64,000 bases of DNA from Sphingomonadales bacterium (lineage in GTDB: Bacteria > Pseudomonadota > Alphaproteobacteria > Sphingomonadales > Sphingomonadaceae). Positions 47,119 to 58,000 of this stretch are shown one piece after another. Numbering within the stretch: position 1 is the first letter of the stretch; each line of letters begins with the position of its first letter. The position numbers were made by a program, and so were the translations under genes. The stretch lies in contig JAIXPC010000013.1 in the NCBI GenBank assembly GCA_027486415.1, forward strand, positions 62,001-126,000. Direction: 5' to 3'. The notes beneath the pieces are model-generated. The model saw nothing but the letters and a program-made list of their open reading frames with translations, searched no databases and was not told where the DNA came from.

Positions 47119-49515
47119 TCAGGTGAGGACAGCGCCGCCCGATTGCGCGATCATCACCAGTCGCGCCAGTTCCGGCAGCGACTTGCAGCCCGAACGGTGC
47201 ATGATCTCGGCGCGGTGGTTTTCCACGGTGCGCTGGCTCAGCTTCAGATCGGCGGCGATATTCTTGCTGGGGTGCCCATCCAGCACCATCGCCATCACCT
47301 CGCGCTGACGCGGGGTGAGCGAGACCAGCCGGGCCGCAGCGGCGGCGGCGGCGGCGCGGCGTTCCTCGCTGATGCCATCGTCGGCCCGGGTGCGGCTGGC
47401 GAGGGCGCGCTTGATGCTGGCGATGATCACCGCGCTTGATGCCGGCTTCTCGATGAAATCGACCGCGCCGGCCTTCATCGCCGCGACCGCCATCGCCACA
47501 TCGCCCTGGCCGGTGATTATGATCGCCGGCGGCAACGTGCCGGCCGATTTCAGGCTGCGAAGCAGATCGAGGCCGGTTTCGCCCGGCATCATCGCATCGA
47601 TCAGCAGGCAGCCATCGGTGCCCGGTTGCCAGTTGGCGCGGAAGGCCGCGCTGGAGGCGTGCAGTTGCACCTTGAGGCCGGCGTCGGCCAGCAACAGGCC
47701 CAGCTGTTCGCGCACGTCCGGATCATCATCGATGATGTGGACGATCTCCGCTGCGGCACTGGTGGCAGCTTCGTCGCCATTGTCGCCCGCCTGGGGATCG
47801 GCCAGCGGCAGGCCGGCCTGTTTCAGGGCAACGGTGATCGCGGACACCAGATCGGCCTGTCGCACCGGCTTGGCCAGCCGCTGCACATCGCGTTCGGCCA
47901 GCCGGCTCACTACCTCGGCGCTGGTGTCGCCCGTCAGCATGATCGCCGGCACCCGGCGCTGGTGCAGGGCCAGCAGGCGGGCGCGCAGATCGTCCACCAG
48001 CTCCAGCCCATCGCGATCGAGCAGTCGATAATCGGCGATGATCAGATCGGGCGTGGCGATGGACAATGCCGCAACCGCCTCGGTCTCGTCGCGGGCGGTC
48101 ACCACGTTGTGGCCATTGGCCCGCAGCAATTCGGTCATCACCGCCAGCACCTCGGCATCGTCGTCGATCAGCAGGATGCGGGCCGTGACGGATGGTGTCG
48201 CCAGGGCAGCACCGGCCGTGCCGTGATCGTCGGCGGGGCTGGCCACGGCCTCCAGCGGCACCGTGATGGCGAACATGGTGCCATGGCCATCACCGGTTCT
48301 TGACGCCAGCGCAATCGGGTGATCCAGCATGGCCGCCATGTTGCGGACCACGGCAAGGCCAAGGGCGACGCCGGCCCCGGCGCCCGGTTCGGCCGCAAGG
48401 ATGGCCGCCTGCTGATCGGCCGGAATGCCGGCCCCGGTGTCCCACACTTCGATGCGAACGCTGTTGCCGCGCCGCCGCGCCCCGATCAACACGCCGCCCT
48501 TCACCGTGGTCTTCAGGGAACTGGTAACAAGGTTGCGGATCATCGCGCCCAGCAGCCGGCGATCGCTGCGGACCACCAGCCGGGTCGGCACGTGGCGCAG
48601 TTCCAGCCGGGCGGTCTGAGCGAGCGCCGCCACGTCGTGTGCCACCTCGGCCAACAGATCACCCAGCACAAAGCTGGACATGGCGATATCGACGGCACCT
48701 GCCTCCAGGCGGCTGCGATCCCGCAGACCGTCGAGCAGGGACGCCATGGCATCCAGCGCCAGGTCCAGCCGGCCCACCAGCCGCTGCAGCTCGGGATCCT
48801 GGGCCTTGCCGGCCAGCAGTTCCTGCAACAGCATCAACGTCTGCAATGGCTGGCGCAGGTCGTGGCTCGCTGCCGACAGGAAACGCGCCGACGCCTGTCC
48901 CGCCGCGTCGGCTGCGGCGCGGGCCTGGGCGACGGCCTGTTCGGCGTTCTTGCGGTCGGTCACATCCAGATAGGTGATGACGACGCCGTTGATGCGATTG
49001 TCGTGGGTGCGGAACGGCTGCACCCGGCGGTTGAACCAGGTGCCATCGCTGGCGCGCAACTGGCGATCCTCGCACGTGCCGCCCCGGCAGACGGTGGCAA
49101 TGTCATCGGCCAGCATGGGATCGGGCGTGTGCGATGCCAGATCGAACACCGGCCGGCCGATATCGCCGGGCAGCATGTTGAACAGGCTGCGAGTGGCGGG
49201 CGTGAAGAAGCGAATGCGATTTTCCGCGTCCAGCACGACGGTGGCGATGCCGGTGCTGTCCAGCACGTTTTCCAGTGTCGCCGAAAGCGTTTTCTGTCGC
49301 TCCCGCGCATCCTGCAGCTGGGCGGCGAGCGCCGCGACTTCGGCCTCAAGTGCGCGCATTTCCTGGTCACCTCGGCCGGCCCCATCGCGCGCCACCTGAA
49401 AATCCGCCACGTTGAGGCTGCGGTCGGTCGCTGACGTGCGCGATCGCCGGCGCGTCGTCGCCGCTGCGGCCTCGCCACTGGTTGGTTCGGTCGTCGTCCC
49501 TGGCAGCTCTGCCAT
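47119..49515 (-). CDS. PAS-histidine kinase-REC-REC-LuxR hybrid regulator
   Basis: This is a 798-residue, apparently soluble regulator with the whole phosphorelay and the DNA-binding output on one chain. A coiled segment (about residues 50-85) leads to a PAS domain (about 80-190). The H-box is RFLSAASHDLRQPLQTL (His218). The ATPase region has DTGAGIP (about 359-364) and GVALGLAVVRNMA, but the N-box reads IRNLVTSSLKTT, with Ser at 332 where Asn is expected. REC1 is about 446-565 (Asp495) and REC2 about 591-705 (Asp640, LLIDAMMPGETG). A FixJ/LuxR helix-turn-helix occupies 728-795 (LTPRQREVMAMVLDGHPSKNIAADLKLSQRTVENHRAEI). The ATG at 49515 has AGGGAGG five bases upstream. The track start at 49704 lacks such a site. 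The signal and target genes are unknown. Confidence 0.88.
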   Translation of the reverse strand: MAELPGTTTEPTSGEAAAATTRRRSRTSATDRSLNVADFQVARDGAGRGDQEMRALEAEVAALAAQLQDARERQKTLSATLENVLDSTGIATVVLDAENRIRFFTPATRSLFNMLPGDIGRPVFDLASHTPDPMLADDIATVCRGGTCEDRQLRASDGTWFNRRVQPFRTHDNRINGVVITYLDVTDRKNAEQAVAQARAAADAAGQASARFLSAASHDLRQPLQTLMLLQELLAGKAQDPELQRLVGRLDLALDAMASLLDGLRDRSRLEAGAVDIAMSSFVLGDLLAEVAHDVAALAQTARLELRHVPTRLVVRSDRRLLGAMIRNLVTSSLKTTVKGGVLIGARRRGNSVRIEVWDTGAGIPADQQAAILAAEPGAGAGVALGLAVVRNMAAMLDHPIALASRTGDGHGTMFAITVPLEAVASPADDHGTAGAALATPSVTARILLIDDDAEVLAVMTELLRANGHNVVTARDETEAVAALSIATPDLIIADYRLLDRDGLELVDDLRARLLALHQRRVPAIMLTGDTSAEVVSRLAERDVQRLAKPVRQADLVSAITVALKQAGLPLADPQAGDNGDEAATSAAAEIVHIIDDDPDVREQLGLLLADAGLKVQLHASSAAFRANWQPGTDGCLLIDAMMPGETGLDLLRSLKSAGTLPPAIIITGQGDVAMAVAAMKAGAVDFIEKPASSAVIIASIKRALASRTRADDGISEERRAAAAAAAARLVSLTPRQREVMAMVLDGHPSKNIAADLKLSQRTVENHRAEIMHRSGCKSLPELARLVMIAQSGGAVLT

Positions 49516-49909
49516 TGTCGCCTCCCTGTCCATCCTGCCCTGTCCATCCTGCCCTGACACACATGCCGGCAGGCAATTGCCGCCCCCGTTGGCGCCGAGT
49601 CCCTTGGGGGCAGGGCTGAAGCGGTGGCGGCGTAAAGGCTCTTGCTGTTCATTACACGAAATTGCTGAAAATATCATCAGCCATAGCGCGTATGCTTTAC
49701 GCAACCACTACAAGTCCAATCATCCCGTCCGAAAATCAAACCAGCCTGTCCTGAAATTTAGATATGACGAAAGAGTAATTATTTGGCAAATAGCGTTCTT
49801 GCGTGTTCATCAGAATGAAAAGAAATCACCGCCCATCGGAAAATGGGCGGTTCTTTTTATCATTACTGAAATGTTTCGTAGGGTATGCCCCCATGTATTC
49901 GGTCGATCC
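49516..49909. other. gene-free, partly AT-rich intergenic region
   Basis: These roughly 390 bases contain no credible CDS. Next to the kinase start is a 14-base tandem duplication (CTGTCCATCCTGCC twice, about 49526-49553). From about 49650 to 49880 the base composition becomes clearly AT-richer than the surroundings, with the low-GC stretch AAATTTAGATATGACGAAAG. A strong hairpin (49828-49851) closes the region on the csbD side. The kinase promoter (minus strand) should lie here. Track ORFs 49412..50389 and 49803..50192 (plus) and 49810..50076 (minus) have no support. Confidence 0.6.
49828..49858. terminator. intrinsic terminator downstream of csbD (possibly bidirectional)
   Basis: ACCGCCCAT and ATGGGCGGT form a 9-bp stem around a 6-base loop. 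On the plus strand TCTTTTT follows. On the minus strand the tail is GATTTCTTTTC. On the minus strand it lies about 60 bases after the csbD stop and is its most likely terminator. On the plus strand there is no gene upstream for it to serve. Confidence 0.8.
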
Positions 49910-50098
49910 TCACCGCTTGGCCTTTGGTGGCGCCGCCGCGCTGGCCTTGCCTGTGGCCGTTTGCACCTTGCCCTTGGCCTTCTGCGCCTTGCCTTCGATC
50001 TCCAGGCCGGGGTCGTCCAGCAGATCACCCGCCGCCGCCTTCGCACTGCCAGCTGCCTTGTTCGCGGCGCCAGCAACTGTTTTCTTGTTGATGGCCAT
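49910..50098 (-). CDS. CsbD family stress protein
   Basis: This is a 62-residue, Ala/Lys-rich, helical protein: MAINKKTVAGAANKAAGSAKAAAGDLLDDPGLEIEGKAQKAKGKVQTATGKA. The GDLLDDPGLEIEGKAQKAKGKVQ core is the CsbD signature. CsbD-like proteins are abundant stress proteins, often under general stress control (sigma-B in Bacillus, EcfG in alphaproteobacteria). Their molecular role is unknown. GGGAGGA precedes the ATG at 50098. I looked for a GGAAC-type EcfG promoter upstream and did not find a convincing one. Confidence 0.88.
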   Translation of the reverse strand: MAINKKTVAGAANKAAGSAKAAAGDLLDDPGLEIEGKAQKAKGKVQTATGKASAAAPPKAKR

Positions 50099-51551: not shown

Positions 51552-51576
51552 GGAACGTTTGCCGGTTTGTGTCGTT
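51552..51576 (+). promoter_or_regulatory. EcfG-type general stress promoter
   Basis: GGAAC (51552-51556), 16 bases, then CGTT (51573-51576) matches the known alphaproteobacterial EcfG promoter consensus (GGAAC-N16/17-CGTT). It lies 34 bases upstream of the ATG of the small lipoprotein gene and starts 9 bases after the transglutaminase stop. The gene for the sigma factor itself is about 400 bases away. Confidence 0.8.
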
Positions 51577-51610: not shown

Positions 51611-51895
51611 ATGCCGTCCCACCCGACATCCCTGCTGCTGGCGATCGCGTGTGCGGTCAGCCTGACGGCGTGTGACAAGAAGCCCGCCGAAGCCCAGGCC
51701 GATGCGGTTCGCGCCAATGCTGATGCGACCGCCGCCAACATCGAACAGCAGGCAGACACGGTTGAAGACCAGGGCGCGCAGGCCGGAACCGAAGCCACCG
51801 CCGATGCGATGCGCGACCAGGCCGAAGCCGTGCGCGAACAGGCCGACCAGAAGGCCGATGCCATCGAGGATGGCCAGACGGCGGCACCGAAATAA
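51611..51895 (+). CDS. small Ala/Gln/Asp-rich lipoprotein, likely EcfG-controlled
   Basis: This is a 94-residue lipoprotein. The signal LLLAIACAVSLTAC has the lipobox Cys21. The rest is a charged, Ala-rich helix with heptad-like spacing (AQADAVRANADATAANIEQQADTVEDQGAQAGTEATADAMRDQAEAVREQADQKADAIEDG), suggesting a coiled-coil periplasmic protein. Function is unknown. AGGAG lies nine bases before ATG 51611. The track start at 51470 overlaps the transglutaminase gene. A consensus EcfG promoter upstream and a strong terminator downstream make this a single-gene stress transcript. Confidence 0.82.
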   Translation: MPSHPTSLLLAIACAVSLTACDKKPAEAQADAVRANADATAANIEQQADTVEDQGAQAGTEATADAMRDQAEAVREQADQKADAIEDGQTAAPK

Positions 51896-51970: not shown

Positions 51971-52684
51971 TCAGGATGCCAGCCGGTCGGCCTGCTGCAT
52001 GATCTGGTCAAAGGCGCTGATGGCGCTGGTCGCACTTTCGTCGCGGCGCTGTGCCAGCTTCCCGCCATCCAGCAGGCCGCGCAGGGCCGCCCGCGCCCGC
52101 GCCACCCGGCTTTTCACGGTGCCGACAGCGCATTGGGCGATGGCCGCCACGTCCTCGCAGCTCATGCCGCTCGCCCCGATCAGGATCAGCGCCTCGCGCT
52201 GTTCGGGCGGCAGCTGCAGCAAGGCGCGCTGCAGATCGTGCAGGGCGATATGGCCTTCCTGCGCCGGCGGCACCGCCAGCAACAGATCGGCGGCCAGTTC
52301 GTCCCACTCGCCCTTGAAGCGCGCCCGTCTGACGATGGAGAAATAGGCGTTCCGCAAGATCACGTGAGTCCACGCCCGCATGCTCGATCCCGCCACGAAC
52401 CGGTCACGCGCCATCCACGCCTTCAGCATGGTTTCCTGAACCAAGTCGTCGGCCAGATCGGGATTGCCCGACAGCGACCGGCCGTAGGCGCGCAGGCGCG
52501 GGATCTCGGCAGCCAGCGCCGCCTTGAATGCCGCCGTGTCAATCGTGATGTCGCCATCGCCCAGCTGATCCAGCAGCGCCTGCAGGGCTGTCGGCAGCGG
52601 GGCGGCCGCGGCATCGGCAAACGCCAGCCGCAGATAGCCGCCGATATCGCCGGCCGGCAGCGGCGTGGTGATCGCGCTATCCAT
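51971..52684 (-). CDS. ecfG: EcfG-type general stress sigma factor with N-terminal NepR-like segment
   Basis: This is a 237-residue sigma factor of the alphaproteobacterial general stress response. Residues about 53-120 are sigma region 2 (IPRLRAYGRSLSGNPDLADDLVQETMLKAWMARDRFVAGSSMRAWTHVILRNAYFS). Region 4 is about 155-215 (ALLQLPPEQREALILIGASGMSCEDVAAIAQCAVGTVKSRVARARAAL). Both match EcfG closely. Ahead of them, residues 13-43 read DIGGYLRLAFADAAAAPLPTALQALLDQL. This follows the pattern of the NepR anti-sigma helices (IGxxLRxxYxxxxxEPLPxxLxxLLxxL). No separate nepR gene exists beside it. The ATG at 52684 overlaps the phyR end by eight bases, with AGGGGAAA upstream. EcfG assignment is firm. 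The fused NepR part is my inference. Confidence 0.88.
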   Translation of the reverse strand: MDSAITTPLPAGDIGGYLRLAFADAAAAPLPTALQALLDQLGDGDITIDTAAFKAALAAEIPRLRAYGRSLSGNPDLADDLVQETMLKAWMARDRFVAGSSMRAWTHVILRNAYFSIVRRARFKGEWDELAADLLLAVPPAQEGHIALHDLQRALLQLPPEQREALILIGASGMSCEDVAAIAQCAVGTVKSRVARARAALRGLLDGGKLAQRRDESATSAISAFDQIMQQADRLAS

Positions 52685-53519
52685 TGCGGTTTCCCCTGCT
52701 GTCGTGGCCCCGGCTGTCGTCGGCGCCGGCAAAGAACAGCGCCTGCGCGATGGCGGCATGCACGCGGCTGGCAGCAAAGGGCTTGGCGATCAGGAAGGTC
52801 GGTTCTGCCCCTTGCCCCGTGGACAACAGGTCGGGGTTGCCGGTGATGAAGATGGCCGGGGCCGCGGTGTGGTTGCGGATGTCACGCACCGCATCGATGC
52901 CGCTGCTGCCGTCGCGCAGGTGGATATCGGCCAGCACCAGCCCCACCGGCGCCTGCCCGGCCAATGCCGCCGCTTCGCGCTGGGTGGACGCGATGCCGAT
53001 GACGCCGTGGCCCATGCCCGTCACGATGGCTTCGATGTCCATCGCGATGATCGGTTCGTCCTCGATGATCAGCACCTCGGTGGGGGCCTGGGCGGCGATG
53101 CCGCGCCGCGCCTCTGCGATCAGGGCGGCCACATCCTCGGCGCTGCGGTCGATCAAGAGAGCGATTTCTGCGTTGGTAAAATCCTCCATCACGCCCAGCA
53201 GCAGCGCCTGGCGCGACACCGGCGCGATCCCGGCCAGCCGGGACTGCGCGGCGCGGGCGGTCGGCGTATCCTCGGCCACCCGCGGCGCGGGATCGGCTGC
53301 TGCCCACACCTGCTGGAACGCCAGGAACAGCGCCAGCCGCGGCGCGGCGATCCCGGCATAGCGCGCGCGGTCGGCCACCAGCGCCGCCAGCGCAGCGGCC
53401 ACCATGGTGTCACCCGCCTCACGCGATCCAGTCAGCGCGCGGGCATAGCGGCGCAGACCCGGCACGTGCGGCGCCAGCGCCGATCGAGACAATCCCGCAG
53501 ACACAGCGACAAGCGACAT
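52677..53519 (-). CDS. phyR: PhyR, anti-anti-sigma response regulator of the general stress response
   Basis: When phosphorylated, PhyR binds the anti-sigma factor NepR and frees EcfG. The 280-residue protein has an N-terminal sigma-like domain (about residues 1-140, PHVPGLRRYARALTGSREAGDTMVAAALAALV ... FTNAEIALLIDRSAEDVAALIAEARRGIAA). A receiver domain follows (about 148-265), with acidic EDE at 153-155, phospho-acceptor Asp198 (LVLADIHL), Thr226 region (FITGNPDLL) and Lys246. A short Gly/Ser/Arg/Asp tail ends the protein. GGGAGG lies before ATG 53519. The TAG lies inside the start of ecfG. The activating kinase is not in the window unless the hybrid kinase at 47-49.5 kb is involved, which nothing here shows. 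Confidence 0.93.
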   Translation of the reverse strand: MSLVAVSAGLSRSALAPHVPGLRRYARALTGSREAGDTMVAAALAALVADRARYAGIAAPRLALFLAFQQVWAAADPAPRVAEDTPTARAAQSRLAGIAPVSRQALLLGVMEDFTNAEIALLIDRSAEDVAALIAEARRGIAAQAPTEVLIIEDEPIIAMDIEAIVTGMGHGVIGIASTQREAAALAGQAPVGLVLADIHLRDGSSGIDAVRDIRNHTAAPAIFITGNPDLLSTGQGAEPTFLIAKPFAASRVHAAIAQALFFAGADDSRGHDSRGNRNG

Positions 53520-53647: not shown

Positions 53648-53779
53648 TCACTTGTTGTCTTCGGCCGATTTGGTGATGGCCTTGCCGGCCGATTGCAGAT
53701 CGCGGCCCGCCCCGGCGGTGGTGGAACAGCCCGCCAACGCAAAGGCGGCGCACACGGCAGTGATGACCAGCGATTTCAT
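53648..53779 (-). CDS. ecnA: entericidin A/B family lipoprotein (43 residues)
   Basis: Too short for the ORF track. The minus strand from ATG 53779 reads [43 protein letters not shown], then TGA. The lipobox LAGC (Cys18) and the [17 protein letters not shown] core are the entericidin signature. Entericidins are tiny membrane lipoproteins linked to stress and stationary phase in enteric bacteria. In alphaproteobacteria they are common EcfG targets. AGGAAA lies seven bases before the start, and a consensus EcfG promoter ends 31 bases upstream. It is the gene just upstream of phyR on the same strand. Confidence 0.85.
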
Positions 53780-53810: not shown

Positions 53811-53836
53811 AACCGTGCGCCCGGGGCGATTGTTCC
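53811..53836 (-). promoter_or_regulatory. EcfG-type general stress promoter of the entericidin gene
   Basis: On the minus strand GGAAC (53836-53832), 18 bases, then GTT (53813-53811) matches the GGAAC-N18/19-GTT consensus for EcfG. Transcription would start near 53804, leaving a leader of about 25 bases with the ribosome site of the entericidin gene. Confidence 0.75.
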
Positions 53837-55025: not shown

Positions 55026-58000
55026 ATGGACGGAACGGGAACCAGTTTTCGCGCGGGTCGTGACCGTGGCGGCCTGCGCGGATTGACGGCCGCGTTGCTG
55101 GTGCACAATGCCGCGATGATGGCTCCGGCGGTCCTGACCGGCATCGGCGCCACGGCGGCCCGTGCCAACGCGCCGCCGTCCTTCACGGTGGGAGACTTCA
55201 TCGTGAACCCGGCAACCGGCCGGATCGACACGGTCGTATCGGTGCTGGGCGGGTCCACAGTGCAGACCAGCAATCGTGGCCTGGTGCTGACAGCACAGCA
55301 GATCGGCGATGAATTCATCGGTGTCGATGGCAGCATCTACCGGGTTGTCGGCAACACCCTGGGCGTGGTCGGCGGGCGCAATGTCGTGACCGAGGTGACG
55401 TTGCGGAACCTGACGACAGGGGCACTGCTGTCCCGGCCAAGTTCGCGCCCTGTCGGCGGTATCGCCGGCTTTGCTGTGGCGGTGCCGCAGATCCCGGCGC
55501 CGCCCGGCCCCGGCGACGCAGACAACGACATCAGACAGTTTCAGCCGCCAGATGCTCCCGATGCCACGCTGGCCTCTCCGTTCAATCCGGGTGCAAATGG
55601 ACCTGGCATCACCGAGACGCTGGGCCCTGGCATCACCAACTGGCGTCAGCAGACGGCCGCGGCCTTCTACCGGGCATCGCGGGGCGGCAAGGGCGGAGCG
55701 GGGCTCGACACGTTCGTCGTGACGCGCGCGGGCCCCGGTGCGTTCGGCGGCCGTGGTGGTGATATCGGGATCACGATCAGTGCTGACCGGCTGGTGCGGT
55801 CGACCGAAGTCGGCACCGCGGGCGTGATCCTGCAAAGCGTTGGCGGCACCGGCGGCAGCGGCGGCGATGCGGCGGCGACCTTCACGCCGGATACCCCGGC
55901 CGGCGGCGTGGGCGGCTTTGGCGGGCGTGCGGGGGACGTGCGGCTGACCAATGTCGGCACCGTGATCACCAGCGGCAATGCCGATGGCAACGGCACCGGG
56001 GCGAGAGGGCTGCTGGCCGAATCGATCGGCGGCGCCGGCGGCAAGGGTGGAGATGCCACTGCTTCCATCGCTGGCGGCGGTCCGGGCGGATTTGGCGGCC
56101 TGGGCGGGCTGGCCGAGATCACGCAGGCCGGCCAGGTGCTGACATTCGGCAACCGCGCCATCGGTGTTCACGCGCGATCGATCGGTGGGCCGGGCGGCAG
56201 CGGCGGCGCGTCCAGGGGCACGGTCGCCTCGTTCGGCAACGGCGGCGGCCAGGGCGGCAACGCCGGCGAGGCCCGGATCATTGCCGGCACCGGCGCGGCG
56301 ACCATCACATCGTCGACCCGGACGCGCGGCGACGACGCGGCGGCCTTCCTGGCACAGTCAATCGGCGGACGCGGCAGCGTTGGCGGCGTCAGTGTGTCGG
56401 GCGTTTCCGTGGGCGGCGATGGCGGCCCGGGGGGCGACGGCAACAATGTGACGGTGACGATCCTGGCGGATGCCATTGCCGGCACTGCCGGTCGCAGCTC
56501 CGATGTCATTCTTGCCCAGTCGATCGGGGGTGGCGGCGGCATTGGCGGCGTCAGCATCGGCGGCCAGGTGCTCGGCGGCGGCGGCGGCAACGGCGGCAAG
56601 GCAGGCACGGTCACCGTCAGCAATGCCGGCCTGCTGATTGCCGAAGGCGCCGGATCACGCGGTATCGTGGCGCAGTCGATCGGCGGTGGTGGCGGCGATG
56701 GCGGCCTTGCCGCAGGCATCACCGCCATCGGCGGCGGCGGCGGCAGTGGCGGCCAGTCTGGCAATCCGCGTGAAAACTTCGGCAGCGCGGTCACGGTCAT
56801 CAACACCGGCAGCATCGTCACGGCCGGCGTGCTGGGCAGCGGCGTCATCGCCCAGTCGATCGGCGGTGGTGGCGGCAATGCCGGGCTGGCCGGGTCGCTG
56901 GCGCTCAGCATCGGTGGCAGAGGAGGCACGGGCAGCAGCGGTGGCACCGTGACGGTCGTCCACGGCGGCGACATCGCGACCCGGGGCAGCAATGCGCTGG
57001 GGATCGTCGCCCAATCGATCGGCGGCGGCGGCGGCAATGGCGGCGGCAGCGCCGGCATCAGCGCTTTCAGCAGCCTCGCGATTGGCGGTCAGGGCGGCAA
57101 CGGCGGGGAAGGTTCGAACGTCACCATCCGGTTTGCCGACCGCCTCACCGCTGTCGAAGGCGGCGAGGTTGCAGCGCCGGCGACTATCTACACCGCGGGC
57201 AGCTTCGCCAGCGGGATCCTCGCCCAATCCGTTGGCGGCGGCGGCGGCAACGGCGGTTTCGCCGTCGCGCTGACCGGCGGGCTTGGCGGGGCGGCATTTG
57301 CCGTGGGCGGCGGATCGGGCGATGGTGGCAACGGCGGCGATATCGTGATCGGCAACGCTGCGCTTGGCCCTGTTGACCGGGTGAATGTCGTCACCGAAGG
57401 CGAGCAGGCGCGCGGCATTGTTGCCCAGTCCATCGGCGGCGGCGGCGGCAACGGCGGACTGGCCTTCAGCCAGGCGACGACGGCAAGCGTCAGCCTTTCG
57501 ACCAGCATCGGCGGCACGGGCGGCGGCGGTGGCATCGGCCGCTCGGTCCGGGTCTTCACCGGTGGCACCATCTTTACGCGGGGCGATCTTGCCACGGGTC
57601 TCACCGCGCAATCGATTGGCGGCGGCGGCGGCAACGGCGGCGTGACGATGGCGCTGGCGCTCAGTGCCGGTCTGGCCAATGCCTCCCTGTCGGCCGGGTT
57701 CGGCGGCAGCGGCGGCAATGGCGGCAATGGCGGCACGGTGTCGACATGGCATCTTGGCACCATCGAAACGCGCGGCGCGCTGGCGACGGGCGCGGTCTTG
57801 CAGTCCATCGGCGGCGGTGGCGGCAGCGGTGGCTTCAACATGTCGGTCGCCGCCACGGGCAGCCTGACGGTGGGCATCAGTGGCGCGCTGGGCTTTGGCG
57901 GCACCGGCGGCAATGGCGGTGCCGGCAACAGCGTCATTGCCACGCTGAACCGCATCAGCACGCATGGCGACAATGCCATCGGCGTGACCGCCCAGAGCGT

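Follow-up and report, generated by a model that had tools for sequence, protein, structure and literature searches.

How is a general stress sigma factor restrained when its gene directly follows phyR and no gene for the anti-sigma factor NepR lies beside it? This question is raised by a locus within a stretch of 64,000 nucleotides (the window) from Sphingomonadales bacterium GCA_027486415.1 (contig JAIXPC010000013.1, positions 62,001-126,000 of the forward strand), where the original prediction, made from the sequence alone, had noted a direct overlap of phyR with a gene for the sigma factor EcfG. The stop of this phyR gene, phyR2, and the start of ecfG indeed overlap by 8 bp, with both genes on the (-) strand, and a maximum-sensitivity scan of 46-60 kb revealed no second NepR at the locus, as had been anticipated. 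Furthermore, the sigma protein carries the expected N-terminal extension of ~50 amino acids (aa), which contains DIGGYLRLAFADAAAAPLPTALQALLDQL and is followed by the sigma core from about residue 53. The proposal that this extension is a NepR domain, fused to the N-terminus of EcfG, is now well supported by sequence comparison.

When searched on its own, the window fusion protein reached 13-16 bits against the NepR model PF18557, which is below the curated cut-off of 25.7 bits, and in a genome-wide search its fused segment scored a sub-threshold 15.5 bits (E 0.05). These scores would fit an extension that is unrelated to NepR and resembles it by chance, an explanation that we regard as hardly credible. 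The fused segments of homologues from g87 (Sphingosinicella-like) and g65 exceeded the cut-off at the same position with 26-33 bits, and a profile-profile comparison (hhalign) of the fused domains with 28 stand-alone NepRs yielded an E value of 3.1e-12; a chance match is refuted by these two results. In addition, PF18557 matched 15 of the 17 aligned fused members at E<=1 (best value 2.9e-7), and the fused-domain profile matched the solved Sphingomonas melonis NepR (2lfw_B) with an E value of 1e-5. L18 and R19 are invariant in the fused domains, position 22 is occupied by F or Y, and the P and LL positions are conserved. In S. melonis NepR, the residues equivalent to L18, R19 and the aromatic residue 22 are L32, R33 and Y36; two of these, L32 and Y36, are required for the function of that protein (PMC6599016). 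Since the motif is kept across seven genera and changes more slowly than the sequence flanking it, it is not a product of chance. Purifying selection on the fused segment was clearest in g87, with nonsynonymous divergence (dN) values of 0-0.06 versus 0.16-0.33 in the flanks and linker. Conceivably, the fusion could be a functionless read-through product that has merely been tolerated, as neighbouring small genes do fuse and the second EcfG of genome G279 appears degenerate. However, the low dN, the invariant LR/aromatic/P/LL pattern over seven genera and the faster evolution of the linker make such a relic very unlikely.

An assembly frameshift was rejected as the source of the fusion, because the same fused open reading frame (ORF) is present in independent isolate genomes. 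Likewise, the fusion gene sequence contains no ATG, GTG or TTG between the NepR motif and sigma region 2; an unfused isoform is therefore not expected, and its production from an internal start was rejected. The remainder of the protein is an EcfG/ECF15 sigma factor with regions 2 and 4. It most resembles alphaproteobacterial EcfG, and it matches the sigma factor from the Bartonella complex with NepR (5uxx_A) with an E value of 6e-53. A profile search of PhyR2 identified the domains PhyR_sigma2, PhyR_sigma-like and Response_reg, which together represent the sigma-like plus receiver architecture of PhyR.

The fusion does not encode the only NepR of the window genome; it is an additional, second module. 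A genome-wide search detected a stand-alone NepR on contig C14 (PF18557, 37.2 bits), encoded within a complete phyR1/nepR1-ecfG1 locus of the canonical divergent arrangement. EcfG-type promoters lie on either side of this locus, and an HWE kinase gene adjoins it. The fused EcfG and EcfG1 share 44% identity, and the fused module could interact with NepR1. The original prediction had named as evidence against a fusion the combination of no NepR match in the extension and a normal nepR elsewhere in the genome. Such a stand-alone nepR does exist, and the fused segment does match NepR.

Among 401 sampled genomes of the family, 20 fused proteins were set apart from the rest by scores of 386-466 bits, while the remaining proteins listed scored at most 376 bits and mostly lacked the N-terminal part. 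With genome G216 added to these 20, the fusion was present in 21 sampled species from seven related genera. Class-wide, the other clear fusions were found in Methylobacterium-like genomes (G580 and Methylobacterium haplocladii, L095). In a sigma-core tree, a single origin of the main sphingomonad fusions was compatible with the data (p-AU 0.731), whereas one clade of sphingomonad and Methylobacterium fusions was rejected (p-AU 0.015; approximately unbiased (AU) test). The tree used for this test was rebuilt without eight rows, and the extra EcfGs L132 (G013) and L133 (G279) were excluded; a wider 91-row tree, which implied seven state changes, was disturbed by long-branch rows (L133, L134, L135 and others). 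Because the tree rejects a common clade, the sphingomonad fusion looks independent of that in Methylobacteriaceae, which indicates that NepR was probably fused to EcfG at least twice. As regards the two extra EcfGs, L132 is also fused to NepR and the N-terminus of L133 has a degenerate NepR-like appearance, and each possibly represents a further fusion event. In three genomes of the window's genus (G021, G108 and G169; 99-100% complete), EcfG, PhyR and NepR were undetected at the thresholds used; the stress-response core seems to have been both gained and lost within this genus.

Core components other than PhyR and the fusion went undetected in a Sphingosinicella-like genus, in Polymorphobacter arshaanensis and in one species of the window's genus. 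Specifically, g87, g4 and G216 encode exactly one PhyR and one EcfG, and no NepR was found in them apart from the fused domain; the g87 sample comprises five species, one of them with a single-contig assembly. A pond metagenome-assembled genome (L041), searched at the locus only, likewise yielded no other NepR. PhyR is known to act by binding NepR. Its retention where no NepR other than the fused domain was detected therefore argues that this domain would be the target of PhyR in the fused-only genomes. In the fused loci of g6, the only other NepR is a small convergent NepR2-like ORF downstream of ecfG (L170-L173; FGASLRKLY...LDEPL). As these ORFs show that standard models can miss some NepRs, a very diverged NepR may be encoded elsewhere in the fused-only genomes.

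The fused loci also differ in their promoters. In nearly all of the unfused sphingomonad loci that were read, nepR is divergent from phyR, and ecfG comes after phyR on the same strand. A GGAAC-N16/17-CGTT site between phyR and ecfG was present in 50 of 55 distinct unfused loci versus 3 of 23 fused loci (shuffle expectation below 1 in both sets), a contrast that is an association rather than an independent test, since the loci share descent. Living genera display apparent intermediates, in which the fusion coexists with a retained nepR or in which nepR and the ecfG promoter are gone, and the order of changes is therefore open to study.

With a probability of roughly 60%, we take the fusion to be an EcfG whose NepR domain inhibits in cis and is relieved by phosphorylated PhyR (PhyR~P). 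The fusion architecture, its conservation in seven genera, the overlapping phyR partner on the same strand and the fused-only genomes are what we observed, and from these we infer inhibition in cis, relief by PhyR~P and tethering of PhyR. In unstressed cells, the NepR helices would fold back onto regions 2 and 4 of the sigma factor and block core RNA polymerase. Upon phosphorylation of PhyR, its sigma-like domain would capture the NepR segment and free the sigma domains. Given the covalent attachment of NepR, PhyR~P would stay tethered to the active sigma factor rather than removing a separate NepR, and the sigma:anti-sigma stoichiometry would be locked at 1:1. For the Sphingosinicella-like bacteria and their relatives, we tentatively suggest as one possibility a partner switch of two core proteins, in which PhyR~P switches on a self-inhibited NepR-sigma protein by grasping its N-terminus. 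The active sigma factor would then remain attached to PhyR, perhaps even within the holoenzyme, and the EcfG-type promoter before ecfG would have been lost in the same lineages.

Methylobacterium EcfG1 bound NepR in vitro only when its NepR-like extension was truncated (PMC4814048), which fits an extension that fills the NepR site. Several observations weigh against inhibition in cis. Full-length Methylobacterium EcfG1 complements an ecfG mutant, and the extension therefore does not permanently silence the sigma factor. The window genome encodes NepR1 as well, and a separate divergent nepR persists beside the fusion in g65, g74 and g14, and weakly in G700 from the window's genus, so that the fused copy was not always sufficient. 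In addition, most fused domains have lost the E that precedes the conserved P, whereas every NepR of the stand-alone set has this E. Finally, AlphaFold2 models of the window protein and a Sphingosinicella protein (predicted template modelling scores 0.43 and 0.49) placed the NepR helices without confidence; Foldseek recognised their sigma core in the PDB, with 5uxx as the best match, and the modelled sigma2-sigma4 arrangement, which is unreliable, differs from that in NepR-bound 5uxx.

The behaviour of Methylobacterium EcfG1, which binds NepR in vitro only without its extension and yet works in vivo at full length, would also suit a shield: NepR-like helices could fill the NepR site without inactivating the sigma factor and render it insensitive to a stand-alone NepR, here NepR1. 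Such a NepR is indeed present in the window genome and in g65, g74 and g14. We nevertheless consider this unlikely, as no NepR that would call for a shield was detected in g87, g4 and G216, and phyR is nevertheless kept beside the fusion there. Alternatively, the domain could act like S. melonis NepR2, a NepR-like PhyR antagonist that is encoded beside ecfG and seems not to bind EcfG (PMC6599016); it would then be a brake that binds PhyR~P without inhibiting the sigma factor. This precedent and the frequent loss of the conserved E are consistent with such a role, but NepR2-like genes persist as separate ORFs beside the fusion in g6 and nothing would remain to inhibit EcfG in the fused-only genomes, which makes an antagonist quite improbable. 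The fused-only genomes, some of which belong to cultured type strains and which include that of Sphingosinicella microcystinivorans, permit a clean test of a partner switch in cis; Methylobacterium, which has six EcfGs as well as several NepRs, is unsuited to it.

NepR-EcfG fusion as such is already known. In Methylobacterium extorquens, sigma-EcfG1 to EcfG6 have a NepR-like N-terminal extension (PMC4814048, 2016; first noted in Francez-Charlot 2009 PNAS, as cited there). As in the window, this N-terminus of ~55 aa precedes an ECF15 sigma factor, and it was read as an ancient nepR-ecfG fusion (PMC4814048). In contrast, the sphingomonad fusion overlaps or follows phyR, a different gene order, and is the sole NepR found in some genomes. 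The statement that a NepR-like EcfG N-terminus is absent outside Methylobacteriaceae (PMC4814048) is contradicted by the sphingomonad fusions. The window locus shares the order phyR then ecfG on one strand with the canonical sphingomonad locus, nepR(-)/phyR-ecfG(+), whereas it lacks the divergent stand-alone nepR and the EcfG-type promoter before ecfG. An anti-sigma part is also covalently joined to the ECF sigma factor in IutY (ECF243) and ECF36, but the former has a membrane-bound anti-sigma part with proteolytic release and the latter N-terminal membrane extensions (PMC8999054), unlike the soluble two-helix NepR and PhyR partner of the window fusion. S. melonis Fr1 likewise encodes an extra NepR-like part at ecfG, NepR2, which differs in being a separate, unfused protein acting on PhyR (PMC6599016). 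No report of a sphingomonad NepR-EcfG fusion was found in the open literature, subscription journals being mostly outside the search. The new elements are the distribution over seven sphingomonad genera, the fused-only genomes and the loss of the ecfG promoter.

Table 1. Features of the fused locus, in window positions.
Feature	Position	Strand	Details
nepR::ecfG fusion gene (P0001)	51971..52684	(-)	237 aa; ATG at 52684, stop at 51971
NepR-like domain DIGGYLRLAFADAAAAPLPTALQALLDQLGD	52556..52648	(-)	fusion residues 13-43; PF18557 15.9 bits on segment
Sigma region 2	52319..52516	(-)	fusion residues 57-122; Sigma70_r2 8e-13, PhyR_sigma2 1.4e-10
Sigma region 4	52079..52237	(-)	fusion residues 150-202; Sigma70_r4_2 4.7e-14
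Shine-Dalgarno AGGGGA, 5' of fusion ATG, rated good	52692..52697	(-)	sequence
phyR2, response regulator and anti-anti-sigma factor, 280 aa	52677..53519	(-)	NF006623 1.9e-87, over cut-off
EcfG-type promoter-like site GGAAC-N16-CGTT	51552..51576	(+)	35 bp upstream of lipoprotein-like gene 51611-51895
EcfG-type promoter-like site GGAAC-N17-GGTT	53811..53836	(-)	before entericidin gene 53648-53779

GGAAC-type sites, which the fused sigma factor may recognise, are located on both flanks of the fused locus (Table 1). Three EcfG-type promoter-like sites were counted in the 64 kb versus 1.2 expected, and the site at 51552-51576 is weak when taken alone. The entericidin-family gene directly upstream of phyR2 (53648-53779 (-); PF08085, 5.9e-8) has such a site in front; ecnAB genes are a known type of target of the EcfG general stress response. 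A small Ala-rich lipoprotein-like gene (51611-51895 (+)) is convergent with the fusion gene, and a CsbD-like stress gene (49910-50098 (-); PF05532, 1.8e-14) lies near the fused module. Further away, 47119-49704 (-) encodes a hybrid protein that combines PAS-HisKA-HATPase-REC-REC-LuxR HTH in a single chain, its kinase being of the HisKA and not the HWE type, and 56168-57058 (-) is a proline-rich repetitive reading frame with PLPPPPPIDWA-type repeats.
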